NCBI RefSeq assembly: GCF_000018425.1
Contig: NC_010424.1
Location: 992,001 to 1,056,000 of the forward strand
Origin: Candidatus Desulforudis audaxviator MP104C
GTDB taxonomy: Bacteria > Bacillota > Desulfotomaculia > Desulfotomaculales > Desulforudaceae
DNA: 64,000 nucleotides
Direction: 5' to 3'
The notes beneath the pieces were generated by a model, which was not told where the DNA came from, did not search any database, and saw nothing but the letters and a program-made list of their open reading frames with translations. Positions within the stretch are counted from its first letter, which is position 1; the number at the start of each line of letters is the position of its first letter. A program made the position numbers and the translations under genes. Positions 17,815-39,982 of this stretch are shown here, in pieces.

Positions 17815-18933
17815 ATGGACAGTCATGGGGGAAAGGAATACCCTATTGATTTTGACACATTATTGAGAATCACCGTGGAACGGCAGGGTTCGGACTTGCA
17901 CCTGACGGCCGGTTTGCCCCCGGTGGTCCGGATTCACGGCGAGCTGGTTCCCCTGGACTATCCCCCGCTGAAACCGTCCGACATAGAGCAATTGGTCCTG
18001 CCCCGGCTGGAACCGTCCTACCGAGCCATACTCGACGAGAAATGGGAACTGGACTTTTCCTATTCCGTGGCCGGGGTGAGCCGGTTCCGCGGGAACATCA
18101 TGCGCCAGCGGGGCAGCTACTCCGCGGTTTTGCGGGTGGTGCCCTACAAGGCTCCGGCTCTCGAGGAGTTGGGCCTGCCGCCGGCGGTGCGCAATCTCTG
18201 CTTTCTCCCGCGCGGGCTGGTACTGGTCACCGGGCCGACCGGGAGCGGCAAATCCACCACACTGGCCGCCATGATCGACCTCATCAACCGGGAACGACGC
18301 GTGAATGTAGTCACCGTGGAAGATCCGATTGAGTTCCTGCACCGGCACAACAAGGCCATCGTCCGGCAGCGGGAGGTGGGGAGCGACACCCGCTCCTTTG
18401 CGGATGCCCTGCGGCACGTTCTACGCGCCGACCCCGATGTGATCCTCATCGGCGAGATGCGTGATCTCGAGAGCATCGCCATCGCCCTGACGGCGGCCGA
18501 AACCGGCCACCTGGTGTTTTCGACCCTGCACACCCAGACCGCGCCGCTTACCATCCACCGCATTGTAGACGTGTTCCAGGAACACCAGCGCGATCAAATA
18601 CGCCAACAGTTGGCCGACTCCCTGCAGGGGGTGATCGCCCAGCAGTTGGTGCCCAGGGCGGACGGCAAAGGGCGGGTGGCCGCCGTCGAATTGATGCTGG
18701 CCTCACCGGCGGTGCGCGCCCTGATCCGGGAGGGCAAGGAGCACCAGATGTACAGTGTCATCCAGACCAGTAGGCAGCAGGGTATGCAGACCATGGACCA
18801 GGCGCTGGCCGAACTGTACACCGCCGGGAAAATCAGCCGCGAGGCGGCCCTGGAGCGGTGCGTGGACCGGACCGAGTTGGAGCGCCTGATGCAAAAAGGG
18901 GTCCCTGGCTCCATGGACCGACGGCTGAAGTGA
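17815..18933 (+). CDS. pilT: PilT-family retraction ATPase (cluster I)
   Basis: A 372-residue hexameric ATPase that depolymerises type IV pili. The N-terminal PAS-like domain has SDLHLTAGLPPVVRIHG; Walker A GPTGSGKST is at about 140-148, the Asp box VTVEDPIEF near 169, Walker B VILIGEMRD near 211, and the His box ETGHLVFSTLHT near 227. The retraction signature AIRNLIREGK appears as AVRALIREGK near 303. Length is normal. It begins the first pilus cluster and is followed by pilC after 48 bases. The start codon has only a poorly spaced AAGGGA. Confidence 0.93.
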   Translation: MDSHGGKEYPIDFDTLLRITVERQGSDLHLTAGLPPVVRIHGELVPLDYPPLKPSDIEQLVLPRLEPSYRAILDEKWELDFSYSVAGVSRFRGNIMRQRGSYSAVLRVVPYKAPALEELGLPPAVRNLCFLPRGLVLVTGPTGSGKSTTLAAMIDLINRERRVNVVTVEDPIEFLHRHNKAIVRQREVGSDTRSFADALRHVLRADPDVILIGEMRDLESIAIALTAAETGHLVFSTLHTQTAPLTIHRIVDVFQEHQRDQIRQQLADSLQGVIAQQLVPRADGKGRVAAVELMLASPAVRALIREGKEHQMYSVIQTSRQQGMQTMDQALAELYTAGKISREAALERCVDRTELERLMQKGVPGSMDRRLK

Positions 18934-18981: not shown

Positions 18982-20190
18982 ATGAGACTGTACACCTATG
19001 AAGCCGTCAACAAGTCGGGCCACCTGATTACCGGGCAGTTGGAGGCCGAGCAGGAGTGGATGGTGGTCGAACGCCTCCGCCAGATGGGCTTCTGGGTGGT
19101 GGAGGTCAAGGCCGTCCGGCCCTCGGCCGTCCGGGGCGCCGTGTTCAGGTCCCGCAAGGTCGGCCTGGGGGATTTGACCCTCTTCAGCCGCCAGTTGACT
19201 TCGATGCTGGACGCCGGCATTCCCCTGACCCGGGCCTTGTTCACCTTAAGCAAGCAAATTGCCAACCCCACCCTGCGCAACGCGGTGAGTGACGTGGCGC
19301 GCAACGTGGAAGGCGGCCAGAGTTTCAGTGACGCCTTAAGCGCCCACCCCGGCATCTTTTCCACCCTGTTCGTCAGCATGACCCGGGCGGGCGAGGTCGG
19401 CGGTTTTTTAAGCGAGGCGCTGTCCCGCCTTTCCACCCAGCTGGAACAGGAAAAGAGTATCCGCGACCACGTCCGCTCCGCCTCTTTCTACCCGATCGCC
19501 GTCTTGGGCTTTGCTGGGGTCGTCGTGTTGGCCATGCTCTATTTCCTCGTTCCCGTCTTCATGCAGTTCTTCCCGGAGGGGATGGTCCTGCCCCTGCCCA
19601 CCAGGGTGGTTGTCGTCCTGTCCAACTCCCTACACCAATGGTGGTTTATCTGGGCAATTACGGTGGCGGCCCTGGTGCTAGGGTTCCGGTACTACCTGCG
19701 CAGTCCGGCCGGCAGCCGCGCCTGGGACCGCCTCAAGTACCGGCTGCCGGTGTTCGGCTCTTTGTTTCACCGGGCGGTGATGGCGCGGTTCGCGCGTACC
19801 CTTGCCACTCTGCTCACGGGCGGCATTCCGATTCTGCAGGCGCTGGAAGCCTCCGGTCCCGCTTCCGGCAGCCAGAAGGTGGCCGAGGCGGTGCACGGAA
19901 TCATCGAACAAATTCAAGAAGGCAAGAACCTCGCCGGTCCCATGGGGGATTCCGGGATTTTCCCGCCCATGATGGTGGACATGGTGGCTGTCGGCGAAGA
20001 ATCCGGCACCCTGCCGGACTTGTTGGGCCGCATCGCAGCGTTTTACGAGGAAGAGGTGGCCACCATGGCCAAGGGGCTGACCGCCCTCCTGGAACCACTG
20101 ATGCTGGTGGTTATCGGTATCATCATCGCCGTGGTGGTCATTTCCCTGTACCTACCCATCTTTACCGCCGTAATCTCGGGTGTGCGATAA
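18982..20190 (+). CDS. pilC: PilC/GspF-family inner membrane platform protein (cluster I)
   Basis: A 402-residue polytopic protein that couples the cytoplasmic ATPase to pilin insertion. It carries two T2SSF domains: residues about 65-185 (FSRQLTSMLDAGIPLTRAL) and about 265-390 (FARTLATLLTGGIPILQALEA). Membrane helices follow each domain (YPIAVLGFAGVVVLAMLYFLV-like, then LMLVVIGIIIAVVVISLY). The N-terminus YTYEAVNKSGHLITGQLEAE is the standard PilC opening. Located between pilT and pilM. Confidence 0.93.
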   Translation: MRLYTYEAVNKSGHLITGQLEAEQEWMVVERLRQMGFWVVEVKAVRPSAVRGAVFRSRKVGLGDLTLFSRQLTSMLDAGIPLTRALFTLSKQIANPTLRNAVSDVARNVEGGQSFSDALSAHPGIFSTLFVSMTRAGEVGGFLSEALSRLSTQLEQEKSIRDHVRSASFYPIAVLGFAGVVVLAMLYFLVPVFMQFFPEGMVLPLPTRVVVVLSNSLHQWWFIWAITVAALVLGFRYYLRSPAGSRAWDRLKYRLPVFGSLFHRAVMARFARTLATLLTGGIPILQALEASGPASGSQKVAEAVHGIIEQIQEGKNLAGPMGDSGIFPPMMVDMVAVGEESGTLPDLLGRIAAFYEEEVATMAKGLTALLEPLMLVVIGIIIAVVVISLYLPIFTAVISGVR

Positions 20191-20230
20191 CGTTTTACAG
20201 TCAACGGACAAAGGAGTGGGACTTCAAGCT

Positions 20231-21268
20231 ATGGGTTTATTAGGTTCAGGTGGAGCCGTCGGCCTGGAACTGGACACGGTTGAAGCTCGGGCGGTGGAAC
20301 TGCGGGGCAAGGCCGGTGCGGCCGGCGCGGCCACCTTGACGGCTTGGGGCCGGGTGAGTCTCCCCCCGGGCGCCGTTGTCGACGGGATGGTGTCCCAACC
20401 GGAGCTGGTGGGGAAGGCCCTAGCCGAACTGTGGTCCGCCGGCCGGATCACCAGCCGCGAGGTAGTACTCGGCGTGGTAAACCGGGAAGTCCTGGTGCGC
20501 TTCGCCGTCGTGCCGGTGATGCCCCGGACCAAGCTTTTTGGTGTCATCCGCCATCACGCCCGGGATCTCCTGCCGATTCCCCTGGACACGGCGGTCTGGG
20601 ACTATACGGTGATCGGTGAGCGGCCGGGCTTGGAGAGCCGGATGTTCGAACTGCTGCTCGTGGCCGCGCGGCGGGAAATGCTGGACGGCTTTTTGCTGGC
20701 GCTGGCCTTCGCCCGTCTGGAGCCGCGGGACATCGACGTGGCCTCCCTGGCTCTGCTGCGGGTCATGCCGCCGTCCCCGGCGGACGGCGCGGTCGTGCTG
20801 GTGGACCTGGGCAACGGATCAAGCACTGTTCTGGTCATCGCACGGGGCATGCTGCGGTTGGCCCGCTTTGTTTCGGTCAGCCTGGAGGCGGCCGCCGGCA
20901 TGCTGGGATGTTCCGTAGAGGAGGCCTTGGCCGGGCCGGGCGGTACCGCGCACAGGCAATGGCCGGCCGAGACCCTGGCCGCCTGGGCTGGCGGCGTGGA
21001 GGCCGAGATCCGCGCCTCCGTGGACTATTACCAGCGGCAGGAGCCGGAGCCGGAGGCCGTATCGGAAGTCGTCCTCAGCGGCCGGGGAGTCCGGGTACCG
21101 GGCCTGACCACCCAACTGGAGGGCAATCTGGGAGTGCCGGTCAGGATCATCGAGCCCCTGCAGGGGATTACCTTGCCGGCGGGAATAGCCGAGAACAGCT
21201 CCTGGTCGGCTCCCGATTTCGCGACCTGTATCGGGCTGGCGCGACGCGGATTGGAGGGGGGACGTTGA
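20231..21268 (+). CDS. pilM: PilM-like actin-fold assembly protein (cluster I)
   Basis: A 345-residue cytoplasmic ATP-binding protein of the type IV pilus alignment complex, which binds the N-terminus of PilN. FtsA/actin-like segments are visible: AVGLELDTVEARAVEL at the N-terminus, VVLVDLGNGSSTVLVI near 189 (phosphate 2 type) and VVLSGRGVRVPGL near 284. The start is the ATG at 20231 after AAGGAG with a wide 15-base spacer; the frame is open to 20180 but overlaps pilC. It overlaps pilN by four bases. Confidence 0.86.
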   Translation: MGLLGSGGAVGLELDTVEARAVELRGKAGAAGAATLTAWGRVSLPPGAVVDGMVSQPELVGKALAELWSAGRITSREVVLGVVNREVLVRFAVVPVMPRTKLFGVIRHHARDLLPIPLDTAVWDYTVIGERPGLESRMFELLLVAARREMLDGFLLALAFARLEPRDIDVASLALLRVMPPSPADGAVVLVDLGNGSSTVLVIARGMLRLARFVSVSLEAAAGMLGCSVEEALAGPGGTAHRQWPAETLAAWAGGVEAEIRASVDYYQRQEPEPEAVSEVVLSGRGVRVPGLTTQLEGNLGVPVRIIEPLQGITLPAGIAENSSWSAPDFATCIGLARRGLEGGR

Positions 21269-21867
21269 ATAAGATCAACATCAGCCTTTTACCTCCGGAA
21301 ATACGGAACCGGCAGCGGGCACGCCGCAGAACCGATTATTATCTCCTGGCCGTCAGCGTGGTAATGCTGTTTTTCTTGGGAGTCTACCTCGTGTTTCTGG
21401 GCATCACTTTTCAAGTGCGTGCGGAAGTGAATGCTCTGCGGAAGGAACGGGCGGCGCTCCAGGAGGAGATCGCCGCCTACCAGGAATACGCAACGCTTGA
21501 GGAACAGGCCAAGGAGGCATCCAGGATGCTGGGGGACGCCATGGGCACCACCCCGGACTGGGCCTCCCTTTTGGCCGATTTGAGCCTGCACCTGCCCGAA
21601 GGGGTCTGGCTCGAAAGCCTTTCGGCTTCCTATCAGAACACGGGCGGCGCTTCCAAGCAGGGGGGCGGTGAATTGACTTTCAGAGGCTGGGCAATCTCCC
21701 GGGCGGTCGTGGACGGTCGCCTGGATGAGTTTGGCGCGGTGCCGGGGCTGGCGGAGGCGCGCTGCCGGTTGACAACGGTGGAAAGCACCCGGCTCGGCCT
21801 CGAGTTCACAGCCCGGATCCTGCCGGGCGACCCCTACCAGCCGGCCTTTCGGGGGGATGCCCGGTGA
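21265..21867 (+). CDS. pilN: PilN-like assembly protein (cluster I)
   Basis: A 200-residue bitopic membrane protein. The N-terminal motif NKINISLLPPEIRNRQRARR is the PilM-binding INLLP-type peptide; one membrane helix (LLAVSVVMLFFLGVYLVFLG) follows, then a coiled coil (EVNALRKERAALQEEIAAYQ) and a ferredoxin-like fold with LPEGVWLESLSASYQ. The TTG at 21265 has GGAGGGGG just upstream and overlaps the pilM stop. Confidence 0.85.
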   Translation: MNKINISLLPPEIRNRQRARRRTDYYLLAVSVVMLFFLGVYLVFLGITFQVRAEVNALRKERAALQEEIAAYQEYATLEEQAKEASRMLGDAMGTTPDWASLLADLSLHLPEGVWLESLSASYQNTGGASKQGGGELTFRGWAISRAVVDGRLDEFGAVPGLAEARCRLTTVESTRLGLEFTARILPGDPYQPAFRGDAR

Positions 21868-22442
21868 AGACCAAGCCCGCCATCCGGCCGCGCGGGCCGG
21901 CGCTGACTTTAAGCGTTGTGAGCCTTCTGGTGCTGGCCGCCCTTCTAGCGGCGATCTTCTTTCAGGTGGGTGCCGTCCGCGAGGCCCGCGAAGCGCTGGC
22001 CGCCGAGCGGCGCGCGGTGGTCCAAATGGAGGAGCGGCGGCGCTATTTGTTGGAACTACAGAAGAATATTCCGGCCTGGAAGCAGTATGTGGACGCACAC
22101 CTGTCGTTGATTCCGGCCGGGCCGGAGGAAAACACGCTTCTTATCGAACTGCACGAGATGGCATTCCTGGCCGGGGTGCACGATTTCCAGGTGGGTTTCG
22201 GCGAGCCGGTGGCGCGTCCGGGATACACCGAGATACCGCTGACCCTCCGCTTTGAGGGCAGCTACCGGAGTACGCTGCGGTTTTTGGATGAATTGCGGTA
22301 CGGGGTACGCGCCATCCGTGTGGACAAGGTCAACCTCGTTTCGGGCGGGGCCGGCCCATCCGGCCTGAAAGCGGAGATCACCGCCGCCGCCTTCCACCGG
22401 GGCGACGGTGGCGACGAGAAGGCGGCATCACCGCGGCAGTAA
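21864..22442 (+). CDS. pilO: PilO-like assembly protein (cluster I)
   Basis: A 192-residue protein with a short basic N-terminus, one membrane helix (LTLSVVSLLVLAALLAAIFF), a coiled coil (REALAAERRAVVQMEERRR) and a globular end with ARPGYTEIPLTLRFEGSYRS, the typical PilO/GspM-like segment. It pairs with PilN in the alignment subcomplex. The GTG at 21864 overlaps the pilN stop by four bases. Followed after 22 bases by pilB. Confidence 0.84.
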   Translation: MKTKPAIRPRGPALTLSVVSLLVLAALLAAIFFQVGAVREAREALAAERRAVVQMEERRRYLLELQKNIPAWKQYVDAHLSLIPAGPEENTLLIELHEMAFLAGVHDFQVGFGEPVARPGYTEIPLTLRFEGSYRSTLRFLDELRYGVRAIRVDKVNLVSGGAGPSGLKAEITAAAFHRGDGGDEKAASPRQ

Positions 22443-22464
22443 CCATCAAGAGGTGTAGGGAGAG

Positions 22465-24150
22465 ATGCTCAAGCCGGGAGCGAACCTTCTGGGGATGAAC
22501 CTGGTGAAGGCCGGGGTGATCACCCAGGAACAACTGGAGGAGGCCTTAAAACGGCAGGACCCGAAAAAAGGCGGGAAAGGGTTTTTAGGGGCCACCCTCG
22601 TGGAGCTGGGTTACTGCACCGAAGAAGACATTGCCCAGGTCATCGCCAGGCAAAACGGCGTACCTTATGTTTCACTGGAAACATTCGCGGCCGACCCCCA
22701 GGCCGTGGGCCTGATTGCGCCGGAGGTCGCCCGGCGCTACCGCGCCCTGCCCATCGGGTTTCAAAACGGCAAATTGGTGGTGGCCATGAAGCAGCCCCGG
22801 GACGTGATCGCGCTGGATGACCTGCGCATCATCACCGGCCGGGAGATCCAACCGGTGGTCATTCCGGACAGCCAGTTCGACGCGGCCATGCAGCGGTACA
22901 GCCAGAGCGGCCTGGAGGTCGAGCTGGCGGCTGCGGAAGAAGAAGTCGCCGAAGAAGTGGTGGCCGGACTGGACGAGGCTGCGCAGCGTCCGGCGGTGCA
23001 GCTGGCCAACGCCATCTTCAACCAGGCGGTCTGGGCTTCCGCCAGCGACGTGCACATCGAACCCCTGGAGAAAAGCCTGCGGGTGCGCTTTCGCATCGAC
23101 GGGGTGCTGCACAACATCCTGCAGCCCCCGCGCCACCTACATGCATCGCTGGTCTCGCGCATCAAGGTGATGGCCAACATGGACATCGCCGAGCGCCGCG
23201 TCCCCCAGGACGGCCGCTTCACCCTGCGGGTGGAGGGGAAGACCATTGATGTGCGGGTCGCCTCGCTGCCCGGGAGCTACGGCGAAAAACTCACTCTCCG
23301 CCTGCTGGACCGCAGTGTCCGGCTGATATCCCTGGAGGAACTGGGCTTCCCGCCGGAGGTGCTGGCCAACTACCGGAAGGTGATGCGTCGCCCGTACGGC
23401 CTCATCCTGGTGACCGGCCCGACGGGGAGCGGCAAGAGCACCACGCTCTACGCCACCCTGTCCGCCTTGAACACGCCGGAGAAGCACGTCGTCACCGTGG
23501 AGGACCCAGTCGAGTACCGCCTGGACGGGGTCAACCAGATCCAGATCAACCCCCGCGCCGGGCTGACCTTTGCCACCGGACTGCGCTCCATCCTGCGCAA
23601 CGACCCGGACATCATCATGGTCGGGGAGATCCGCGACCGGGAGACCGCCCGCATCGCCGTGGAAGCGGCGCTTACCGGCCACCTGGTGCTGTCCACCCTG
23701 CACACCAACGACGCCGCCGGGGCGGTCACCCGCCTGGGCGACATGGGCATCGAGCCCTTCCTGACCGCCTCCTCGCTGGTGGCCGTCGTGGGCCAGCGTC
23801 TGGTGCGCGTCCTCTGCCCCCAGTGCGCGCAGTCCTACGAGCTGGGGCGGGAAGAACTGCTGGCCGGCGTGCCCGACTTTCCCCTGGACGACGGGGAAAA
23901 GACCATCACCCTCTACCGTCCGGGAGGGTGCCTGCGCTGCAGCCACACCGGCTACCGCGGTCGGATGGGAGTGTACGAGCTGCTGCTGGTCAGCGAGACC
24001 ATCCAGCGCCTTACTCTGGAACGTGCTCCGGCCCGGGAGATCAAGGAGGCCGCCGTGGCCGAGGGGATGGTCACCTTCCGCCGCGACGGCCTGCTGCGGG
24101 TGAAGCAGGGGATCACCTCGCTGGAGGAGGTGATGCGGGTCACGGCTTAA
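22465..24150 (+). CDS. pilB: PilB/GspE-family extension ATPase (cluster I)
   Basis: A 561-residue hexameric ATPase powering pilus extension. The N-terminal MshEN-like domain has two halves: LGMNLVKAGVITQEQLEEAL and, after a short linker, FLGATLVELGYCTEEDIAQV followed by IARQ, matching the RLGxxL...Q cyclic di-GMP binding pattern apart from F for R. Walker A GPTGSGKST is near 318-326, the Asp box VTVEDPVEY near 347, and the His box TGHLVLSTLHTND near 406. The zinc tetracysteine is CPQC...CLRCSHTGYRGR. Full length. Confidence 0.94.
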   Translation: MLKPGANLLGMNLVKAGVITQEQLEEALKRQDPKKGGKGFLGATLVELGYCTEEDIAQVIARQNGVPYVSLETFAADPQAVGLIAPEVARRYRALPIGFQNGKLVVAMKQPRDVIALDDLRIITGREIQPVVIPDSQFDAAMQRYSQSGLEVELAAAEEEVAEEVVAGLDEAAQRPAVQLANAIFNQAVWASASDVHIEPLEKSLRVRFRIDGVLHNILQPPRHLHASLVSRIKVMANMDIAERRVPQDGRFTLRVEGKTIDVRVASLPGSYGEKLTLRLLDRSVRLISLEELGFPPEVLANYRKVMRRPYGLILVTGPTGSGKSTTLYATLSALNTPEKHVVTVEDPVEYRLDGVNQIQINPRAGLTFATGLRSILRNDPDIIMVGEIRDRETARIAVEAALTGHLVLSTLHTNDAAGAVTRLGDMGIEPFLTASSLVAVVGQRLVRVLCPQCAQSYELGREELLAGVPDFPLDDGEKTITLYRPGGCLRCSHTGYRGRMGVYELLLVSETIQRLTLERAPAREIKEAAVAEGMVTFRRDGLLRVKQGITSLEEVMRVTA

Positions 24151-24184
24151 GCCTTAGAAAAATTATGATAAAAAAGAGGAATTT

Positions 24185-24255
24185 CCGGCCTGGCTGTCTA
24201 ACTCCATAATTTGGAGCATCCAGAAAAGGATGGCGGCCGGACCGGTGCTTGGCAC
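24185..24255 (+). ncRNA. Structured 5' leader of pilA (unassigned)
   Basis: The 145-base gap between pilB and pilA can fold as a three-way junction: CCGGCC (24185-24190) with GGCCGG (24235-24240) encloses CTCCA/TGGAG (24202-24206, 24212-24216) and CATCC/GGATG (24217-24221, 24228-24232), the latter two stacked end to end. A further hairpin GTGC-TTG-GCAC (24245-24255) follows. No T-run follows, so it is not a plain terminator. It lacks the conserved bases of cyclic di-GMP riboswitches that I know. Folding is by eye. Confidence 0.45.
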
Positions 24256-24295
24256 ACCATCCAACAAGAGAGTGCCCGAAAGGAGGTGAATTTTG

Positions 24296-24709
24296 ATGTT
24301 CTACAAATTCGCCCGTTCGCTGAAGAAAGACCAGAGGGGCTTCACGCTGGTGGAGCTGATGGTGGTTGTGGTGATCATCGGGGTTCTGGTGGCGATTGCG
24401 GTGCCGGTGTACCGCAACGTGACCGACAATGCGAATCGGAAGACGGTAGAGGCCAACTTGAGGATTATCGACAGCGCCATTGTGCAGCATTTGGCCATTA
24501 ACCCAGGCGTCCCACCTACATCGGACAATCTGGTGACCGGCGGATTTCTGCGGGCGTGGCCTACCGGACCAACTGGTGTCACAAGGTATGTTATAGTAGG
24601 AACTGGCACTGCCGCCAACCCTTATAGGGCAGCTGTAGATATTCCTGCAAATACATTCGGAACACACGCTGAATTGGATGATGCACCGTTACCGATTACT
24701 TGGCAGTAA
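24296..24709 (+). CDS. pilA: Type IV prepilin, PilA-like (cluster I)
   Basis: A 137-residue prepilin. The leader MFYKFARSLKKDQRG ends at the peptidase site G/FTLVELMVVVVIIGVL, with Glu at +5. The hydrophobic helix of about 22 residues is followed by AVPVYRNVTDNANRKTVEANL, typical of class IVa pilins of Gram-positives. The C-terminal half is less GC-rich than its surroundings, as expected of a variable surface domain. AAGGAGG lies nine bases before the ATG at 24296. It is the only pilin in cluster I, probably the major one. Confidence 0.9.
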   Translation: MFYKFARSLKKDQRGFTLVELMVVVVIIGVLVAIAVPVYRNVTDNANRKTVEANLRIIDSAIVQHLAINPGVPPTSDNLVTGGFLRAWPTGPTGVTRYVIVGTGTAANPYRAAVDIPANTFGTHAELDDAPLPITWQ

Positions 24710-26668: not shown

Positions 26669-26741
26669 TCTATGCCTTTTTTGGATTTACGCAATGCCTG
26701 AGCCCGCAAAGTATTGATATTACTGGGTTTTAGTTTTCCGA

Positions 26742-26995
26742 ATGCCTAGAAAATGGCCCGGAACTGTCGAACTCGGGGTTATTCGGCGGGGGAACAACCG
26801 GGAGTATATTTTTGAAACCGACGGGACAAGCAAAGTCTGCTGAGGGAAATAGAAAAATGCCGGATAGCCATGGGTGTCAAGCTGTTCGGCTACGTCATCA
26901 TGGGAAACCACTGTCACCTGATTTTGCAGACCACGACCAGTCCGTTGAGCAAGGTCATGCACCGGATTAACGGGCGGCGAGATGGAGAAAGCTGA
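26742..26995 (+). pseudogene. Frameshifted REP-associated (Y1/HUH) transposase remnant
   Basis: The ATG at 26742 gives MPRKWPGTVEL...RRGNNREYIFETDGTSK before a TGA. The next frame continues with REIEKCRIAMGVKLFGYVIM and then GNHCHLILQTT, which contains the HxH metal motif of HUH transposases, and ends at 26993-26995. The catalytic Tyr region is missing. The gene is broken by a frameshift and a 3' truncation. Confidence 0.75.
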
Positions 26996-27251
26996 ACCTT
27001 ACCTGGTCAAGGGTGCTGAGTATGGGGCGTACGCTCTAGAACGGTATGTAGATCTTGGGAAGTTCTATCTGCACCAACAGCGGTTTGAGGATGCAGAAAG
27101 GGTGTTTTTAGCCGGACTAGGTTTCCGGGACGCCGCCCTTAAGGCATTACCTGATAAGGACAGTGTTAAGAAGCAGATCGCCGAACTTAATCTTTTGCTG
27201 GCGCGTATATACGACAACAGGGAGAACGCGAATTGTCTCAGCATCACCTGA
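26982..27251 (+). CDS. TPR-like small protein, possibly a gene fragment
   Basis: An 89-residue frame begins inside the end of the transposase remnant. The sequence YALERYVDLGKFYLHQQRFEDAERVF looks like one tetratricopeptide unit, followed by a Lys/Glu-rich helix. No ribosome-binding site is visible, and similar segments occur at the C-termini of larger TPR proteins, so a decayed fragment is likely. It ends about 90 bases before the convergent pseudopilin gene. Confidence 0.45.
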   Translation: MEKAEPYLVKGAEYGAYALERYVDLGKFYLHQQRFEDAERVFLAGLGFRDAALKALPDKDSVKKQIAELNLLLARIYDNRENANCLSIT

Positions 27252-27344
27252 GGGCTGCCGAGACTATAAGCGTTAAGTGAATTTTTACCCTGTGGAAAAA
27301 CGACGAGGATAAGTCAAGTTTACTTTGGGAAATCTATCTGCCGC

Positions 27345-28973
27345 CTATTCACTCAAAAATGGATAGTCGGCGACCGAGCTGAAGAAAGTGTTTATATGCT
27401 TGAAAGTGACGGTGGTCCCGCCGCGCGTAACAAAAAAGCCGTCTCTGGCGATCACCACTCCCTCGAAGAACTCTCCCTCAAAGGTCACTCTTCCGTTCGG
27501 CGCGTATAATACCCCGCTGACCCCGCTGCCTCCAAGCCTAGTGATGGTGATATCTCCCTTGCTGACGATGACCACGTTGTGCGCGGTCGGCCGCCAGGCG
27601 GTCGACGAATAATTATCGGCATAAATTTTAATTCCACTTGTCAGGGCTCCCCCGGATACATATCCGTTGGCGGCATACCAGGCGTCCGGTTTTAAAGCAG
27701 GAAAGCCAAAATCAGGCACCACAAAGCCCGGAACGCTGTCCACCTTGATGCATTTTGAAATGATGCCAGGGCTCATGCGTTTGGGATGGGTTAGAGTACC
27801 CGTATAGTAAATGCGCGCATTGGGCTTGAGGTCGGGTGTCCAACCCAGTTCCACATTCCCATTGACATAAATATTGCCGTGGATTACCGCGTCCTTCAAG
27901 CGCAGATTGCCGGCGACGTAGACGTTGCCGTAAACATCACGCTTCCCTTTCCATAAAGTCAAGTCGCCGTTAATATAAATGGAACCGGTGTTATCGGCCG
28001 CGCCTAAATCGGCGCTCCCTCCATCCAAATCTACAGAGCCGTCTATATAAATTGTTTTAACGTCGATATGAGAACCCTTGTTCAAATCATCTTCCCCCAA
28101 GTTCCCCTTGATTACAATGGTGGCGTTTCGTCCTTCAACTTTTTCGCCTTCAAAAACCAAGCGGCCTCCATACACAAACACGTTCTGATCCTGCAAAAAG
28201 TCATAAAAATCATATTTATCCACAAAGTAGGCCCTTGCTTCTATGTCTTTGTTCATGACGATCGTGGTGGTGGCCGTAGTGATATTGACTCCATTGATGA
28301 GCCACTTCTTGAATACCCATCCGTCCGCCGGAAAAGCCGTCAAAGGCACCGTGGTATTCTTTTCATAAACGTGGTCGCCCGCCTCCGGGGATGTGGTACC
28401 ATTGCCTTCTGCTACCGAGACCGTTAGCGTATATCGTTCCGGAGGTGTTTCCGCTGGCCGCTCACTTTTGTAGGCAACAGCCACTCCGTCTTTACCGCTT
28501 GAATCGGCCAGGGGATTCAGAAGCCGAATCCTGCCGTCTATGGCGTAAGCATCTTCACCGCTGTTGGCGACGCGATAAGCCAAAAACTCCCCGTCCAGGG
28601 AAAAACCAAGATCCTCCTTCAGCACGACCCCCTCCGAGATGCGGTCAAAGACCGTATCTTCGCCGCCGCCTGCTTTCCGGTGCTTGAGGACACCATCCTT
28701 AACGTAAATATAGTTGAGGTCCGCGGCAAACGATTGGGGGACGGAACCGAGCACATATACGTGGGTGGCATACCTTAGCTCTTGGGTAATAAAGTCGGCT
28801 GCCAGGCGAATATTCTGCCGCACCCAGGAGCGCTGTTCCCCCGCGGTAAAAGATTGGTGGCCGAAATAAAAAAAGGTGTAACCTATTGCCAGTACCGCGC
28901 CCAAAAGGGCCGCCCCGACCAGCAGCTCCACCAAGGTCAATCCCTTGTTGTTCCCGGGGCCGCGCTCAAACAT
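27345..28973 (-). CDS. PilW/PulJ-type pseudopilin with large exported domain (cluster II, minus arm)
   Basis: A 542-residue protein, unusually large for a pseudopilin. The prepilin site is G/LTLVELLVGAALLGAVL after a 10-residue leader, followed by a PulJ-like segment. Near residues 195-265 lies an InlB/Listeria-type repeat (YTLTVSVAEGNGTTSPEAG, FPADGWVFKKWLING). From about 290 come strand repeats such as IYINGDLTLWKG, VYVAGNLRLKDA, IYVNGNVELGW and VIVSKGDITITRLG, suggesting a bactofilin-like or parallel beta-helix fold. GGGGAGG before the ATG at 28973 fixes the start. Possible tip protein or adhesin by inference. Codons are more AT-rich than in the neighbours. Confidence 0.8.
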   Translation of the reverse strand: MFERGPGNNKGLTLVELLVGAALLGAVLAIGYTFFYFGHQSFTAGEQRSWVRQNIRLAADFITQELRYATHVYVLGSVPQSFAADLNYIYVKDGVLKHRKAGGGEDTVFDRISEGVVLKEDLGFSLDGEFLAYRVANSGEDAYAIDGRIRLLNPLADSSGKDGVAVAYKSERPAETPPERYTLTVSVAEGNGTTSPEAGDHVYEKNTTVPLTAFPADGWVFKKWLINGVNITTATTTIVMNKDIEARAYFVDKYDFYDFLQDQNVFVYGGRLVFEGEKVEGRNATIVIKGNLGEDDLNKGSHIDVKTIYIDGSVDLDGGSADLGAADNTGSIYINGDLTLWKGKRDVYGNVYVAGNLRLKDAVIHGNIYVNGNVELGWTPDLKPNARIYYTGTLTHPKRMSPGIISKCIKVDSVPGFVVPDFGFPALKPDAWYAANGYVSGGALTSGIKIYADNYSSTAWRPTAHNVVIVSKGDITITRLGGSGVSGVLYAPNGRVTFEGEFFEGVVIARDGFFVTRGGTTVTFKHINTFFSSVADYPFLSE

Positions 28974-29044
28974 GTTTTGCCCTCCCCGGCTCCACATGTT
29001 ACTTAACCTCGTATCCTTCAAAGGTTAGTTCAGCACGGTCGGAC

Positions 29045-29401
29045 CTATTCGGCCTCGGCGTTGTAAATATTTGTGGCCATAGTAATACAAACCAAAGAAC
29101 CTTCCTCAACAATGCCGGCGTCATCTATCCGCATCAGATAATTGTCTCCGGTGCGGGTTGAGAACGAAATTTCAAAATCGGCCTTTCTAGCAACGTCATT
29201 TCGGCTTATTTTCTCTTCCAAGACTTGCTGGGTATGATAAATAAGCCTACTTTTCTCACCACTGTCCATTATGCCTTTAAAGCTCGCGCTCAAAAGGACA
29301 GCGGCCGCCGCAATAAAGATAGCCAGTAAGGCCACGGCAACGATTATCTCGACCAGGGAAAAACCCCTGTGCGTTGATGGAAACCGGCTTTTTCCCCTCA
29401 T
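29045..29401 (-). CDS. PilV/GspI-type pseudopilin (cluster II, minus arm)
   Basis: A 118-residue prepilin with leader MRGKSRFPSTHRG and cleavage site G/FSLVEIIVAVALLAIFIAAAAVLL, Glu at +5. The soluble part is short, with EKSRLIYHTQQVLEEKIS typical of PilV/GspI minor pilins. It is immediately downstream of the PilX-like gene (one base between stop and start) and upstream of the large PilW-like gene; all three form one unit. Confidence 0.82.
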   Translation of the reverse strand: MRGKSRFPSTHRGFSLVEIIVAVALLAIFIAAAAVLLSASFKGIMDSGEKSRLIYHTQQVLEEKISRNDVARKADFEISFSTRTGDNYLMRIDDAGIVEEGSLVCITMATNIYNAEAE

Positions 29402-29402
29402 C

Positions 29403-29801
29403 TCAGCGGCTCCAATATCTATTATTGCTGCTGTCGATTTCCAGTGTCAGGGTTTGTGTTACGCCGTCCACTTCCCCTGTTGACTGAATGACCAGTCTTT
29501 GCGCCTGCTTGTCAATCCGCACGGAAAAATGCTTTTCCGCGTTGCCTTCCAAATTATACGGTCCGGAAATCCAGGGATAATCATCACGGGCGATTAAAGA
29601 TTCGAAATTGTTAACGGCGTAATCCGCAACCAGCTCCGCTCCGGATCTGGCCAGGTAGTGCGCCTGCATTGCTTTTTCTTGTACGATAACATGCTTTACG
29701 TCTGTCATGGAATAATACCACAAAGCCGTACCAAGTAAGGATATCACCAAGATCACCATGAGCACCGAGGGCATAGCCCACCCTTTTTCGCTAAAAATCA
29801 T
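29403..29801 (-). CDS. PilX-type minor pilin-like membrane protein (cluster II, minus arm)
   Basis: A 132-residue protein: MIFSEKGWAMPSVLMVILVISLLGTALWYY has the PilX pattern in which the prepilin site is degenerate and lacks Glu at +5. QAHYLARSGAELVADYAV is the matching post-helix segment (the AYY-AEAG type in PilX). First gene of the minus-strand minor-pilin unit. Confidence 0.75.
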   Translation of the reverse strand: MIFSEKGWAMPSVLMVILVISLLGTALWYYSMTDVKHVIVQEKAMQAHYLARSGAELVADYAVNNFESLIARDDYPWISGPYNLEGNAEKHFSVRIDKQAQRLVIQSTGEVDGVTQTLTLEIDSSNNRYWSR

Positions 29802-30157: not shown

Positions 30158-31405
30158 TTATTCAATCTTCTTGTTCAACGCCTCGATCTGCTTGATCTTT
30201 TCCGGGGACTCCTCGACCCAGAGCACGTAGTGAGGGTTGTCCGCGTCTCCCGAGAGGTTGCGGGAGATGTGGAAACTTCCGATCGGCACGCCGCTGAGTT
30301 CGCTCAAAAGGTGCCGCCTGGCGTTTGCCGCCTCGTGGGCATGAGCACCGGTGGTCGAGGCCACCGGTACCCGTATCCTCTGCCGCGTCCCGTCGAGGCC
30401 GGCCAGGGCGCCGCGCACCTGGTTCTGGAGGTGGGGCGGACAGATCACCAAAATCTCCTGGCTGATCTCCGGGTAGTTGAAGGTTTGGGTGGCCACGTCT
30501 TCAAAACCGAAGGCTGCCAGGCGAGAGGCCGCGTCGGCGGCCGAGATGTTTTTGAGCTGGTACACGAACACGGTTCGTTCCCGGGCGTCCAGGGTGTCGA
30601 GCGCTCTGGCCAGATCTTCCACCTGGCCCCAACGGTTGTGCAGTGTACGGTCAAAGATCAATAGCTGATTGCCCAACACCACGGACTGGGAGACGTCCAG
30701 CCCCGCCTGACCCAAAAGGTCCGCCAGCCGGACCGGTGACACCTGCGTAGTCGTGAGGGTCCGGTATTGCAGAGATAGTTCATTCTCCGCCCGGTCGACC
30801 GCCTGCAGCAGTTCCCGCAGCTTGTGCAGGGCCTGTGGGGTGCCCTGAGCCCAGAGCACCTGGGGATTGGTATCCACCGAGATGCTGGAGAGGGGGATGC
30901 CCAGCTCTTCTATCAAGGGTTTCACCTTGTCCGCGGTAACAAACAGCAGGTTAAACCGCGTCAGGATCATCTGCTTGAAGAAGTCGTTGTGCAGGGTGTC
31001 CGGGTCGGCAATGACGATGACGTTCCCCTCGCGCAGGTAGGACAGTCCCTGGGTCTGAAGAATAAGCTCGAAGGCCTGGGCCAGGGTTATGCCCTGGGCC
31101 TCGAAAGTAACCGGACCCGCGGCTTCATCCACCAGAACCATGCTCACGCCCATCTTGATGGCCAGCGCCGACAGAACGTCCCGGAGGTCCGCCTGCCGCA
31201 CGTCCAAGGTGATGGCCTCGCCGCCCAGACCGGCAACAGAGATGGAGTCAGTGATTCCCGGCGCTCCGCCCAGGGCGGCCTGGTCCGGGTTCCCGCTCCC
31301 CGGCGCCGGGTTCGGCCAACCGACCAGCAACAGCACGATGACCAGGAAGTGGACCAGCGGTTTCAAGAAGCGGCCTTTCGGGTTGGGCTGTGTTGCGTAT
31401 TTCAA
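30158..31405 (-). CDS. Secretin-like protein with STN and N domains but no secretin barrel
   Basis: A 415-residue exported protein. TTG at 31405 follows GGAGG by nine bases. One hydrophobic segment (FLKPLVHFLVIVLLLVGW) is a signal or anchor. An STN domain covers about residues 60-130 (LDVRQADLRDVLSALAIKMG, QGLSYLREGNVIVIAD). Two secretin N-like units follow: FNLLFVTADKVKPLIEELG...LRELLQAVD and VFVYQLKNISAADAASRLAAFGFE. No C-terminal outer-membrane secretin domain (the VPxLxxIPxxGxLF region) is present; the protein ends after about 75 residues of unfamiliar sequence. In a cell with one membrane it may be a wall-spanning or scaffold remnant of PilQ. Confidence 0.75.
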   Translation of the reverse strand: MKYATQPNPKGRFLKPLVHFLVIVLLLVGWPNPAPGSGNPDQAALGGAPGITDSISVAGLGGEAITLDVRQADLRDVLSALAIKMGVSMVLVDEAAGPVTFEAQGITLAQAFELILQTQGLSYLREGNVIVIADPDTLHNDFFKQMILTRFNLLFVTADKVKPLIEELGIPLSSISVDTNPQVLWAQGTPQALHKLRELLQAVDRAENELSLQYRTLTTTQVSPVRLADLLGQAGLDVSQSVVLGNQLLIFDRTLHNRWGQVEDLARALDTLDARERTVFVYQLKNISAADAASRLAAFGFEDVATQTFNYPEISQEILVICPPHLQNQVRGALAGLDGTRQRIRVPVASTTGAHAHEAANARRHLLSELSGVPIGSFHISRNLSGDADNPHYVLWVEESPEKIKQIEALNKKIE

Positions 31406-31419
31406 TGACCTGATCCTCC

Positions 31420-31917
31420 TCAGCGCCTTCCGGCCAATGAGAGTTCCAACTCTTGCTCGCCGGCGGTGAGCAGAACGGTGTCCTTGTCGATTTTCGAGAC
31501 GGTCCAAACGCTCTGCACCAGGTCCCCTTCGGAGACCACGTAGGCGGCGTCGCCGGCCTCGATGATGGCCAGGTTGCCCCCGCGGCCGCCCAGGATGACG
31601 CCGGCGAGTTCCAGGGGGCCTATAAACGGATCCTTGACCTGTTTGCGTTTGGGAGTTTCCTCCGGTACCGGGTCCAGCGGCCTCTTGGTCTTGGGCAAAA
31701 CCTCGTACGCCTGGCCGGCTTTGTCCGGGCCGGTTCCGGGCGGGGCCTGGTCGGCGGGAACGTTGCCGGCGTCAGGCTTCAGGATGACGTACGTCACTGT
31801 GCCCGCGCTGATAACGACAAAGGCGATGCCCAGCGCCGCGATGACCCGCAGGTGGCGTTTGAAAAACTCGGTCCTGCTGGTCCGTTCCACGTTCACTTCA
31901 GGGTTGCTCTCGGCCAC
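31420..31917 (-). CDS. PilP/GspC-like bitopic protein
   Basis: A 165-residue protein with an N-terminal membrane helix (VIAALGIAFVVISAGTVTYVI), a Pro-rich linker and a C-terminal small beta domain: DPFIGPLELAGVILGGRGGN, AYVVSEGDLV, VSKIDKDTVLL. This is the PilP / GspC homology-region pattern, which in diderms binds the secretin N0 domain. The GTG at 31917 has AAGGAGAGAG upstream; a start at 31965 would add 16 residues. It lies just upstream of the secretin-like gene (14 bases), as pilP precedes pilQ in proteobacteria. Confidence 0.75.
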   Translation of the reverse strand: MAESNPEVNVERTSRTEFFKRHLRVIAALGIAFVVISAGTVTYVILKPDAGNVPADQAPPGTGPDKAGQAYEVLPKTKRPLDPVPEETPKRKQVKDPFIGPLELAGVILGGRGGNLAIIEAGDAAYVVSEGDLVQSVWTVSKIDKDTVLLTAGEQELELSLAGRR

Positions 31918-32208: not shown

Positions 32209-32973
32209 GTGGGGGTGCGGGTGGTTCTCGAGGGCCTCCTGATATTCGTGCTCGGATCCATCGTGGGCAGCTTTCTCAACGTCTGCATCCACCGCCTGCC
32301 GGTCGGGGAGTCGGTAGTGTTTCCACCGTCGCGGTGTGTCTCCTGCGGGGCGAAGCTGGGCTTTATCGACCTGGTGCCAGTGTTCAGCTTCCTCTATCTG
32401 CGGGGGCGGTGCCGCCGGTGCGGGGTGCCTATCTCGTGGCATTACCCGCTGGTGGAGTGCGCCGCCGGTTTGTTGTTTGTCCTGGCCTGGCTGCGGTTCG
32501 GCGCCACCTGGGCGACGCCGGGCGCCTGGGCACTCTTTGCGGTGTTGCTCATCGCAACGCTGATCGACCTCCGCCATGGAATCATTCCCGACCGGGTCGT
32601 GCTGGCCGGCCTGGTGCTGGGGTTGCCGCTGGTGGCGCTTCAGTCGTGGGCCGCCCTGCTCTGGGGCGCGGCCGCGTTTTTGGGGGCGGGCCTCTTCATG
32701 CTGGCCATCGCGGTGATATCCCGCGGGGGGATGGGTGGGGGCGATATCAAACTCGCGGCGCTGATGGGGCTCTACCTGGGTCCGGCGGGGGTGGCGCTGG
32801 CGCTGTTTCTGGCCTTTTTGGCCGGGGGAACGGTGGCGGTGTTGCTGCTGGCCACCGGTCGGAAGGGCAGGAAGGACCCGGTGCCGTTCGGGCCGTACCT
32901 GGCGCTGGGAGGCATCGTCGCCGCGCTCTGGGGAAGGGAGATAATCAGTTGGTATTTTGGTTTGTGGGGTTAA
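32209..32973 (+). CDS. pilD: Prepilin peptidase / N-methyltransferase
   Basis: A 254-residue polytopic aspartic peptidase (A24A) that cleaves prepilins and methylates the new N-terminal residue. The N-terminal domain has FVLGSIVGSFLNVCIHRLP and two CxxC pairs, CVSC near 43 and CRRC near 67. Catalytic Asp are in LIDLRHGIIPD near 119 and GGGDIKLAAL near 177. It is the only prepilin peptidase in the window. Start GTG at 32209 or 32221. The 291-base gap to the minus arm holds both divergent promoters; I see TATAAT near 32136 but no convincing -35. Confidence 0.92.
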   Translation: MGVRVVLEGLLIFVLGSIVGSFLNVCIHRLPVGESVVFPPSRCVSCGAKLGFIDLVPVFSFLYLRGRCRRCGVPISWHYPLVECAAGLLFVLAWLRFGATWATPGAWALFAVLLIATLIDLRHGIIPDRVVLAGLVLGLPLVALQSWAALLWGAAAFLGAGLFMLAIAVISRGGMGGGDIKLAALMGLYLGPAGVALALFLAFLAGGTVAVLLLATGRKGRKDPVPFGPYLALGGIVAALWGREIISWYFGLWG

Positions 32974-33041
32974 AAAGAAAAGGGAATACCGATCGCATCT
33001 AGAAAGTCTTGGTGAGCTTCCGATTGTTTTGAGGTGTTGTT

Positions 33042-34727
33042 GTGGCGGAGGCAAAGACTTCCAAGAAGCAACTCGGGGAACAACTTATTGAAAGAGCTCT
33101 GATCACCAGGGAACAGCTCTGGGAAGCCCTGCGGATTCAGTCCAAGACCGGCGACAAGCTGGGCGTCATTCTGGTCGGGATGGGTTTGGTCTCCCAGGAC
33201 GAGATCAACGACATTCTGGGCTTGGCTCCCACCGTGTCCCTGGAGTCGATCGACCCTGATTTGCTGAAGACTGTACCGGAACAACTTATCCGGAAATATA
33301 TGGCCATCCCGGTGAAGAAAGAAGGACGTAAACTGACACTAGCCTTGGCCGACCCGACAAACATCCTGGCGATAGATGATTTCCGCCTGATTCTGGGGTG
33401 CGAGGTGGAACCGGTGAAGATGGCGCAGGAAGACATCGAGGCGGCGCTGCAGAAACACTTCGGCATCCCGCAGTTTGACAAAGCTTTCGAGGAATTTGAC
33501 CTGGAAGTGGCCGCGGAGGAGGAAGAGCCGGAAGAGGAAAGCCTGGTCGACGACGCCCCCGTGGTGCGGTTGGTGAATTCCCTGTTCCTGCAAGCCATCG
33601 AAATGAAAGCCAGCGACATCCATATCGAACCCCAGGAGACCGGACTCCGGATCAGGTACCGGGTGGACGGCCTGCTGCGGGAGGTCGCCCACCTGCCCAA
33701 GAAGATCCGCCCCGCCGTCATCTCTCGTGTCAAGATTATGTCCGAAATGGACATCGCCGAGAAAAGGGTGCCCCAGGACGGCCGTATCCCACTCAAGTTT
33801 GGGACCAAAGAGATCGACATGCGTGTGTCAACCCTGCCGACGGCTTACGGAGAGAAAGTGGTCAGCCGCCTGCTGGACAAGTCGGGTATGCAGAACTACC
33901 GAATCGAACAGCTCGGCTTTCACCCGGACAACCTCAGGAAGTTCCAGTCGGCTCTTCGCAATGCTTACGGGATGTTGCTGATCACCGGCCCCACGGGAAG
34001 CGGCAAAACCACCACCCTCTATGCCGCCCTCAACCAACTGAACACCCCGGAGAGGAATATCACCACGATTGAAGACCCGATTGAGTACATGTTGCGGGGC
34101 ATCAACCAGACACAGGTGAACGTCAAGGCCGGAATGACCTTCGCCGCCGGGCTTCGCTCGATTCTGCGGCAGGACCCGGACATCGTGATGGTCGGAGAGA
34201 TCCGCGACCGGGAGACGGCTGACATCGCCGTGCGGGCGGCGGTAACCGGCCACCTGGTGATGTCAACGCTACATACCAACGACGCCGCCAGCGCGGTAAA
34301 CCGCCTGGTGGATATGGGCGTGGAGCCTTTTATGGTCTCGGCCTCCCTGCTCGGGGTGGTGGCCCAGCGTCTGGTGCGCCGCCTTTGCACAACATGCAAG
34401 GAGGCCTACCCGCTGCCGGAGCACGATCCGGTGCGCCAGTTCCTCGGCTGCGACTCTGCCGATGCGGTGACGCTCTACCGGGGCCGGGGCTGTAACCGGT
34501 GCGGCCAATCCGGGTACCGGGGCCGGGTGGCTCTGCACGAGGTGTTCATCGTCGGGTCCGAACTCCGTCCCCTGATTTCGGCCAACGTGCCCGCCGACCA
34601 GCTTAAGCAGAAAGCGGTTCAGCACGGGATGATCACCTTGAAACAGGACGGAGTGTATAAGGTGCTGGAGGGCCTGACCACCGTGGACGAAGTTATGCGC
34701 GTGGCCTACATCGGTGAGGATGAGTAG
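33042..34727 (+). CDS. pilB: PilB/GspE-family extension ATPase (cluster II)
   Basis: A 561-residue assembly ATPase. The N-terminal MshEN-like domain begins LGEQLIERALITREQLWEAL, but its second half (KLGVILVGMGLVSQDEINDI, then LGLAPTVSL) is shortened where the motif normally ends in Q. An acidic linker (EEEEPEEES) precedes the catalytic core with SDIHIEP, Walker A GPTGSGKTT near 316, Asp box TIEDPIEYML, Walker B IVMVGEIRD and His box TGHLVMSTLHTND. Tetracysteine: CTTC...CNRCGQSGYRGR. The GTG at 33042 follows GAGGTG. Confidence 0.93.
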   Translation: MAEAKTSKKQLGEQLIERALITREQLWEALRIQSKTGDKLGVILVGMGLVSQDEINDILGLAPTVSLESIDPDLLKTVPEQLIRKYMAIPVKKEGRKLTLALADPTNILAIDDFRLILGCEVEPVKMAQEDIEAALQKHFGIPQFDKAFEEFDLEVAAEEEEPEEESLVDDAPVVRLVNSLFLQAIEMKASDIHIEPQETGLRIRYRVDGLLREVAHLPKKIRPAVISRVKIMSEMDIAEKRVPQDGRIPLKFGTKEIDMRVSTLPTAYGEKVVSRLLDKSGMQNYRIEQLGFHPDNLRKFQSALRNAYGMLLITGPTGSGKTTTLYAALNQLNTPERNITTIEDPIEYMLRGINQTQVNVKAGMTFAAGLRSILRQDPDIVMVGEIRDRETADIAVRAAVTGHLVMSTLHTNDAASAVNRLVDMGVEPFMVSASLLGVVAQRLVRRLCTTCKEAYPLPEHDPVRQFLGCDSADAVTLYRGRGCNRCGQSGYRGRVALHEVFIVGSELRPLISANVPADQLKQKAVQHGMITLKQDGVYKVLEGLTTVDEVMRVAYIGEDE

Positions 34728-34758
34728 CCGCGCTTGATTCTTTAAGGAGGCGCGCGGG

Positions 34759-35856
34759 ATGCAGATAGACGAGATTCTAAGACTGGCCTTCAAACTGGGC
34801 GTGTCCGACGTGCACCTGACGGTGGATAGCCCGCCGGCCTTCCGCCTGCACGGCGCCCTCCTGCCGTTTGATGCTCCGGAATGGCAGGGGCGGCTGGAAA
34901 TCGACCCATCGTACGTGCGGGCCTTGACTCCGGCCGATACCGACGGGCTGGCCCGGCAACTCATCGCTCCGGAGCGGTACAATGACTTTCTCCGGGTCGG
35001 GGATTTGGACTTTTCGTACGCTATCGAGGGCGTGGGGCGCTTCCGGGTGAACGCGTACAAGCAGAAGGGCAACGTGGCGTTGGCGCTCCGCCTGATCAAC
35101 TCCAGGATTCTGTCATTCAGCGAACTCGGCCTGCCGGAAATTCTGGCCTACCTGTCCCGCCGGCCCCGGGGTATGGTCCTGGTGACCGGTCCCACCGGCA
35201 GCGGCAAGTCGACCACCCTGGCGTCCATGATTGACCTGATCAACCGGGAGCGGCACGACCACATCATCACCCTGGAAGACCCGATCGAGTTTGTGCACGT
35301 GCACAAGAAATGCCGGGTCAACCAGCGGGAGATCGGACTGGATACCGGATCCTTCGCCAGCGCCCTGCGCGCCGCTATGCGCGAGGACCCCGACGTCATC
35401 CTGGTGGGTGAAATGCGCGACCCGGAGACGGTCGGGATCGCCCTGACGGCGGCCGAGACCGGCCACCTGGTTTTGGCTACCCTGCACACCTCCAGCGCGG
35501 CCCAGACCATCGATCGGATCATCGATGTCTTCCCCCCGCACCAGCAGCAGCAGATCCGGGTTCAACTGGCCAACACGATCCAGGGAGTGGTCGCGCAGCA
35601 ACTCATCCCCCGGATCGACAAGCCGGGACGGGTGGCGGCCATTGAAATCATGGTGGCCACGCCGGCAATACGAAACCTGATTCGCGAAGGCAAGACCTAC
35701 CAGATCATCAGCCAGATTCAGACCGGGGCGAAGTACGGAATGCAGTCGCTGGATATGAGCCTGCGCACGCTGTACCAGAAGAACATGATCAGCAAGCAGG
35801 AGGCCCTGAACCGGGCGGCTGACCCGGAGAGTCTCAGGAAGATGATCGAGGAGTGA
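34759..35856 (+). CDS. pilT: PilT-family retraction ATPase (cluster II)
   Basis: A 365-residue retraction ATPase: SDVHLTVDSPPAFRLHG at the N-terminus, Walker A GPTGSGKST near 142, ITLEDPIEFVH, VILVGEMRDPETV, His box ETGHLVLATLHTSSA, and the exact AIRNLIREGK signature near 304. Preceded by AAGGAGG, nine bases before the ATG. It is a second copy beside the cluster I gene, so clusters I and II each have their own retraction motor. Confidence 0.94.
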   Translation: MQIDEILRLAFKLGVSDVHLTVDSPPAFRLHGALLPFDAPEWQGRLEIDPSYVRALTPADTDGLARQLIAPERYNDFLRVGDLDFSYAIEGVGRFRVNAYKQKGNVALALRLINSRILSFSELGLPEILAYLSRRPRGMVLVTGPTGSGKSTTLASMIDLINRERHDHIITLEDPIEFVHVHKKCRVNQREIGLDTGSFASALRAAMREDPDVILVGEMRDPETVGIALTAAETGHLVLATLHTSSAAQTIDRIIDVFPPHQQQQIRVQLANTIQGVVAQQLIPRIDKPGRVAAIEIMVATPAIRNLIREGKTYQIISQIQTGAKYGMQSLDMSLRTLYQKNMISKQEALNRAADPESLRKMIEE

Positions 35857-35901
35857 CGTCGCAGCACGGGTAGAGGTTCCGAGAGTTGTGTTCAACATAG
35901 G

Positions 35902-37161: not shown

Positions 37162-37256
37162 TCTGGGTGCCCGGTAGCCGGAGTGTGGTAGTCGCGTACA
37201 GTAGTATAGTATAGTTAAGGTACGAGAGGGGCGCGCGGCAGAAGGGGTGAGCGGGT

Positions 37257-37778
37257 TTGCAGCCGCTGGAGGGCCGGGGTGGCGAGCCGGGGAGCGGGAA
37301 AGCCGGGAGCGCGGGTTTCACTCTGATCGAAATGGCGGTGGTCCTGGCGATTATCGGGATCATTCTGGCCGTCGCCGTGCCGAATATGCGAACGTCCCTG
37401 GATTCCTATCACGTCCGGAGTGCCGCCGCCGAGATCGCTACCACGATCCGGTACGCGCAGCAGGAAAGCGTGAGCCGGGAGATGCGGCACAAGATCGTAT
37501 TCGATTCCGGGCGTAACAGCTATACCCTGTACAGGATTGAGTGCGTGGATCCGGGGGATCCGGAAGAGATCCAAACCGAACTGGAAAGCAGCTCTTTGCC
37601 GGCCAATGTGCTCTTGGCGGGCACAACCTTCCCTGCCGGCGAGCTCACCTTCGGGGAGCAGGGCCGCCCCTCCACGGCGGGGCAGGTGACCCTGAAGGGC
37701 GGTTCGGGGCAGTCCCGCCTGGTGGTGGTGGACGGCACCGGAGGGGTACGGGTGATGACCCCTTCCGGGGAATCCTGA
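37257..37778 (+). CDS. GspH/FimT-type pseudopilin (cluster II)
   Basis: A 173-residue prepilin with a 19-residue leader and site G/FTLIEMAVVLAIIGIILAVAVPNM. The post-helix part (AAAEIATTIRYAQQESVSRE, HKIVFDSGRNSYTLYRI) matches GspH. TTG start at 37257, with AGAAGGGGTGAG upstream. Candidate minor pseudopilin priming pilus assembly. Confidence 0.85.
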   Translation: MQPLEGRGGEPGSGKAGSAGFTLIEMAVVLAIIGIILAVAVPNMRTSLDSYHVRSAAAEIATTIRYAQQESVSREMRHKIVFDSGRNSYTLYRIECVDPGDPEEIQTELESSSLPANVLLAGTTFPAGELTFGEQGRPSTAGQVTLKGGSGQSRLVVVDGTGGVRVMTPSGES

Positions 37779-37804
37779 GCCGGACTAGACAGGGGGAAGC
37801 GGGC

Positions 37805-38715: not shown

Positions 38716-38731
38716 CCGGGGGTGAATCAGC

Positions 38732-39961: not shown

Positions 39962-39982
39962 CCAAGGAGGGGGACGCAGGTA

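Follow-up and report, generated by a model that had tools for sequence, protein, structure and literature searches.

The closest described counterparts of the gene pair analysed here are PilP and PilQ, encoded in the pilMNOPQ operon of diderm bacteria, and the GspC and GspD proteins. Monoderm relatives have been described as lacking PilQ (Antunes 2016, PMC5007114); no secretin was recognized in monoderms and PilP was absent, as expected, from S. sanguinis (Pelicic 2019, PMC6916266); and a 2023 review (PMC10191384) again stated that the outer-membrane parts are missing in monoderms. The passage of type IV pili through the thick Gram-positive wall has been presented as an open question (PMC5007114). 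In its treatment of Gram-positive pil operons, one study (Imam 2011, PMC3244431) reported PilQ homologues in Desulfotomaculum reducens and Pelotomaculum thermopropionicum, suggesting transfer from Gram-negatives as their origin.

A window of 64,000 nucleotides from Candidatus Desulforudis audaxviator MP104C (NC_010424.1, positions 992,001 to 1,056,000; all positions below are those of the window) contains two minus-strand genes related to this pair. The first, P' (31420..31917), begins with GTG and encodes a bitopic PilP/GspC-type protein of 165 aa. The second, Q' (30158..31405), encodes a barrel-less PilQ of 415 aa; its TTG start codon lies 14 bases past the end of P' and is preceded by AGGAGG. 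The limits that an earlier note on this DNA had given for the pair (30158-31917) are correct.

Pfam searches of Q' returned an STN domain (residues 96-133, E 3e-7) and a Secretin_N domain (residues 151-207, E 4e-10), and HMMER counted two Secretin_N stretches on the longer ORF. Sequence matches to solved structures covered exclusively the N-type domains of Q', with PilQ N0-N1 in first place (E 8e-13), before GspD. The AlphaFold model of Q', built on a 29-sequence alignment (mean pLDDT 83.7, pTM 0.53), displays a signal-like helix, a disordered linker and five alpha/beta domains reaching the C-terminus; global superpositions of several domains at once gave large rmsd values, as expected with flexibly linked domains. 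The N0 (STN) domain (residues 60-135; 31001..31228), identified by Pfam, structure and profile, matched the N0 of barrel-bearing PilQ with a profile probability of 98.8. It is followed by the N1 (Secretin_N) domain (residues 146-208; 30782..30970), which aligns to PilQ N1, and Neisseria PilQ was the best structural match for both domains (Z 11.2, the value obtained with its N0). An N1-like repeat, D2 (residues 211-272; 30590..30775; profile probability 94 versus N1), is not present in part of the Q' relatives (two families). The third N-type domain (residues 277-341; 30383..30577) aligns to a GspD N-domain (residues 282-360 of 5w68, Z 8.5) and is more weakly N1-like in profile comparison (probability 47). 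The site of the barrel in diderm PilQ is occupied by a conserved C-terminal domain (residues 342-414; 30164..30382; NARRHLLSELSG...YVLWVEESPEK), modelled as beta-alpha-beta-beta-alpha and N1-like by profile (probability 86). The possibility that this domain is part of a secretin barrel was rejected (profile probability 2%). Since D2 and the C-terminal domain are N1-like and profile comparison related no Q' domain to the secretin barrel, the barrel region of Q' is replaced by other domains. The STN and Secretin_N units that the earlier note had recognized were thus recovered, the former by all three approaches; its count of three domains was too low, the model containing about five.

The TIGR02515 PilQ model aligned to Q' solely over its positions 1-180 of 428, giving 51 bits against an NCBIfam cut-off of 284. 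No match to the secretin barrel PF00263 was obtained in a six-frame search of the whole 2,349,476-base genome (E<=10), and on these grounds a hidden or split barrel elsewhere in the genome was rejected. The barrel was likewise found in 0 of 113 genomes of the class and in 0 of 46 Q' proteins. Q' is consequently not classed as a secretin, and the missing C-terminal secretin region reported in the earlier note is real.

The model of P' contains a transmembrane helix (residues 23-46; 31780..31851; pLDDT about 90), predicted in place of the lipoprotein anchor of PilP, and an HR/PilP beta domain (residues 100-165; 31423..31620). Together they bear out the bitopic, PilP/GspC-like nature proposed for this protein from the sequence. 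The Pfam GspC match to P' was below threshold (E 1e-3). In the structural comparison, the beta domain superposed best on the GspC HR in 3oss, with Z 10.3 and an rmsd of 1.8 over 61, followed by PilP of M. xanthus, P. aeruginosa and N. meningitidis. The top 12 structural matches all belonged to the PilP or GspC/GspB family, save one Dot/Icm chain, and scored Z 5.7-10.3, with a gap to the next row at Z 3.5. In the linker (residues 74-79, about 31681-31698, minus strand), L74, P75 and R79 are invariant, and most members carry LPxTxR.

Within the class, Q' was found in 30 of 113 genomes and P' in exactly those 30, a recurrence far beyond chance for Q', the counts in this and the phylum survey not being phylogenetically independent. 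P' lies directly upstream of Q' in 28 of these genomes and beside the PilM of cluster II (see below) in the other two. PilM was present in all 30 Q' carriers, versus 97 of the 113 genomes overall; the 67 genomes that encode PilM without the pair indicate that monoderm pili do not generally need P' and Q'. Among 398 genomes of the phylum, the 16 strong Q' carriers all lacked both the secretin barrel and Omp85, and the 66 genomes with weak Q' matches encoded true secretins in every case and Omp85 in 65. Carriers include Desulfotruncus, Desulfoscipio, Sporotomaculum, Desulforamulus, heliobacteria, Dethiobacter and several clostridial MAGs, among others. Secretin_N was present in 46/46 Q' proteins and an N-terminal, peptidoglycan-binding LysM domain in 10/46; neither LysM nor another known wall-binding domain was found in the host Q'. 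In two loci from clostridial MAGs, the pil cluster includes a short Q', and P' was not detected in the vicinity. A clostridial-type LysM-Q' pilus operon was also observed on a contig named Candidatus Sumerlaeota, whose protein is identical to one in another genome of the survey; this contig is probably a misnamed or misbinned MAG.

The usual gene order in Desulfotomaculia and heliobacteria is pilB-pilT-pilC-pilM-pilN-pilO-P'-Q'-pilin, followed by the pilin genes mC-mB-mA; in other lineages it is P'-Q'-pilT-pilC-pilM-pilN-pilO-pilB. Outside the family of the host, P' and Q' mostly come right after pilM, pilN and pilO, which matches the diderm pilMNOPQ arrangement. Diderms of the same phylum display PilM-PilN-PilO-PilP followed by a barrel-bearing PilQ in several loci, and a P' profile picks up deltaproteobacterial PilP, located there directly upstream of PilQ. 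It is mainly this shared gene order and the recovery of PilP by the P' profile that make the orthology of P' and Q' to PilP and PilQ well supported.

In the host, unlike in many relatives, the pilM-pilN-pilO-pilP-pilQ order is rearranged. Three type IV pilus gene sets occur within 45 kb (17815-24709, 32209-42668 and 53544-62267), each with pilM, pilN and pilO, and the window holds a single P'-Q' pair. Cluster I, on the plus strand, comprises PilT (17815..18933) and PilC (18982..20190), both assigned by similarity to the operon genes of relatives, PilM (20180..21268; PilM_2, E 1e-24), PilN (21265..21867; PilN, E 0.001, and operon position), PilO (21864..22442; PilO, E 1e-7), PilB (22465..24150; scoring 742-884 bits against PilB proteins from the P'-Q' operons of relatives) and a pilin (24293..24709; prepilin sequence and comparison with relatives' operons). 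Downstream of Q' and on the same strand lie the minor pilin mC (29403..29801; PilX-like, weak PilX_N, E 0.098), the minor pilin mB (29045..29401; N_methyl, E 7e-8) and the large pilin-like mA with an InlB-type repeat (27345..29021; N_methyl, Flg_new_2); mC-mB-mA follow Q' and a pilin in many relatives. Divergent from the pair, the prepilin peptidase gene pilD (32209..32973, plus strand) was recognized by sequence and by a position conserved in a congener. After the pilO of cluster II, 42676-43116 encodes a small protein that looks secreted and in which a copper amine oxidase N-terminal domain was recognized; similar proteins occur near P'-Q' clusters in some relatives. A selenocysteine tRNA gene is predicted at 14315-14408.

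The earlier note had placed P' and Q' in cluster II, an assignment that comparative gene order makes probably wrong. The congener keeps the pair beside cluster I, and pilB, pilC, pilM, pilN and pilO of cluster II were not found beside its locus; in other families, the neighbours of P' and Q' match cluster I proteins; and the mA-mB-mC block (24924-29801) is inverted in the host relative to the congener, with a DDE transposase gene (24924-26660) at the junction. As judged from these arrangements, cluster I (17.8-24.7 kb) is the set with which P' and Q' most likely work. In two Desulforudis MAGs, P' has moved to a site adjoining the PilM of cluster II, where the stretch read yielded neither PilN nor PilO.

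On balance, we favour the reading that P' and Q' are an ancient PilP-PilQ pair, re-purposed in barrel-less form as a wall-embedded collar of the type IVa pilus machine. P' would be anchored in the cell membrane together with PilN and PilO, and its HR domain would bind the N0 of Q' in the way GspC binds GspD (3oss). Exported Q' would stack its N-type domains into rings that would form a collar within the cell wall, keeping the pilus steady or guiding it at the point corresponding to the outer-membrane gate of diderms; in several lineages, LysM probably ties Q' to peptidoglycan. The analysis establishes the domain composition, orthology, co-occurrence and selection of the pair; ring formation, the HR-N0 contact, export, wall location and pilus passage are inferred. 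Several observations count against this reading: the host Q' carries no LysM, 67 class genomes have PilM but not the pair, two loci contain Q' with P' undetected in the vicinity, and P' adjoins the PilM of cluster II in two Desulforudis MAGs. Of the two alternatives put forward in the earlier note, a wall-crossing ring or a relic of a diderm ancestor, these data suggest that the former is the best reading, to which the LysM-bearing members add support. More broadly, and only tentatively, many monoderm Clostridia may keep a full PilM-N-O-P-Q set in which PilQ is a barrel-free ring stack tied to peptidoglycan and acting as a wall conduit for pili.

The main rival, which we regard as unlikely though deserving of attention, is a scaffold role without any ring around the pilus, in which the pair would lend stability to the PilMNO assembly platform or act as a wall sensor. 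PilMNO are indeed considered to work in pilus assembly proper, beyond alignment (PMC6916266), and the repeat number of N-type domains differs between Q' lineages; such variation might be hard to accommodate in a fixed conduit. Against this, N0-N1 are stacked ring domains in PilQ, GspD and injectisome secretins, and the LysM fusion indicates the wall as the place of action.

A role resembling type II secretion or DNA uptake, with P' as a bitopic GspC and Q' as a gateless GspD, is improbable. The membrane helix of P' and the GspC HR as its top structural match would suit such a system, as would the presence in Q' of more than two N-type domains, a feature of GspD; nevertheless, the operons include PilT, PilM, PilN, PilO and several pilins, and the N0-N1 region of Q' is nearest to PilQ.

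Conservation bears on a further reading, in which P' and Q' are a functionless remnant of PilP-PilQ decaying after loss of the outer membrane. A gene order equal to that of diderm pilMNOPQ would be expected of such a remnant, and the PilM-bearing genomes of the class that have no pair imply that its loss is tolerated. However, a comparison of congeners shows purifying selection on Q' (dN/dS 0.24; 0.43 in the case of P'), which is thus not a dying relic. Between congeners, Q' is 80% identical, more than PilM (62%), PilN (44%) and PilO (39%), and PilC is also less conserved. The architecture of Q' is near-constant over many families at 40-55% identity, P' and Q' co-occur exactly, and conserved domains stand in for the barrel, so that Q' is no mere cut version of PilQ. 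In an N0-N1 tree, which has few columns, long branches between groups and no known root, the barrel-less proteins fall on one side of a single branch (support 99/98, all bootstrap trees), a topology that a single barrel loss fits, without being proven by it. Decay is already largely ruled out by this conservation, and we consider it very improbable. The relic proposed in the earlier note hence survives in part: selection, architecture, the single branch and co-occurrence with P' speak against a decaying form, and gene order upholds inheritance from a diderm-type pilMNOPQ operon.

An LpxC match over the curated cut-off in 11 class genomes, and an Omp85 match in one, could be taken to favour an outer membrane in the host, or a separate protein that supplies the barrel. 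This reading is scarcely credible, because PF00263, Omp85 (PF01103) and LpxC (PF03331) are all absent from the host genome, the single Omp85 match among the 113 genomes of the class lies in a fragmented assembly without a secretin, and the LpxC of two relatives examined, from those 11 genomes, sits in a surface-glycan-like cluster. Read from sequence starts, the LpxC neighbours in both of these loci are an aminotransferase, an ATP-grasp protein and an oxidoreductase, resembling a surface-glycan set; with this context, and with a host devoid of LpxC, lipid A was rejected as a sign of an outer membrane in the class. The host genome encodes Spo0A and shows no sign of an outer membrane, in line with the description of a single-membrane spore former in the earlier note. 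Of the two outcomes by which that note would have been refuted, a secretin C-terminal domain and a diderm host, the searches thus gave neither the domain nor any diderm marker. A sporulation channel was also rejected, as the P' and Q' genes are located in pilus operons.

The persistence of a barrel-less PilP-PilQ pair in many monoderm Clostridia corrects the general statement on monoderms, and it means that a PilQ annotation by itself is no proof of an outer membrane. P' and Q' give the search for a wall conduit specific candidate proteins, open to deletion and imaging, and they mark the changes that a diderm machine undergoes once the outer membrane is lost; if the proposed role is true, a barrel-free PilQ stack would answer how type IV pili cross a thick wall. 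The finding is not wholly new, since PilQ homologues in Gram-positives were already reported in 2011 (PMC3244431). Those homologues very probably belong to the same family as Q'; the passages on them are silent about a lost barrel, about PilP and about LysM.

Compared with PilQ (TIGR02515; 4av2, 6w6m, 3jc8), Q' shares N0 and N1 in sequence and structure, and its place after PilP in pilMNOPQ. It differs in having no secretin C-domain or barrel, in its extra N-type domains and conserved C-terminal domain, in the AMIN domains, none of which were found, in the LysM fused to some members, and in hosts without outer-membrane markers. P' resembles PilP (2lc4, 2ivw) and the GspC HR (3oss) in its HR/PilP beta fold, in a conserved DPF before the fold and in a gene directly upstream of PilQ; unlike PilP, it has a transmembrane helix, as in GspC, is no lipoprotein and carries a linker with an invariant LP...R motif. 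Ring domains outside a membrane are also found in SpoIIIAG and other Firmicute rings built from the ring-building motif. Their likeness to Q' concerns the way of working, without sequence comparison, and operon and partner proteins differ; no literature joining the ring-building motif, SpoIIIAG and the secretin was found. In diderms, TsaP is a LysM protein associated with PilQ, and the complex 6ve2 is among the structural matches of Q'. The use of LysM near a type IV pilus gate is shared, with the difference that here the domain is fused to the N terminus of Q' itself, in 10 of 46 members.
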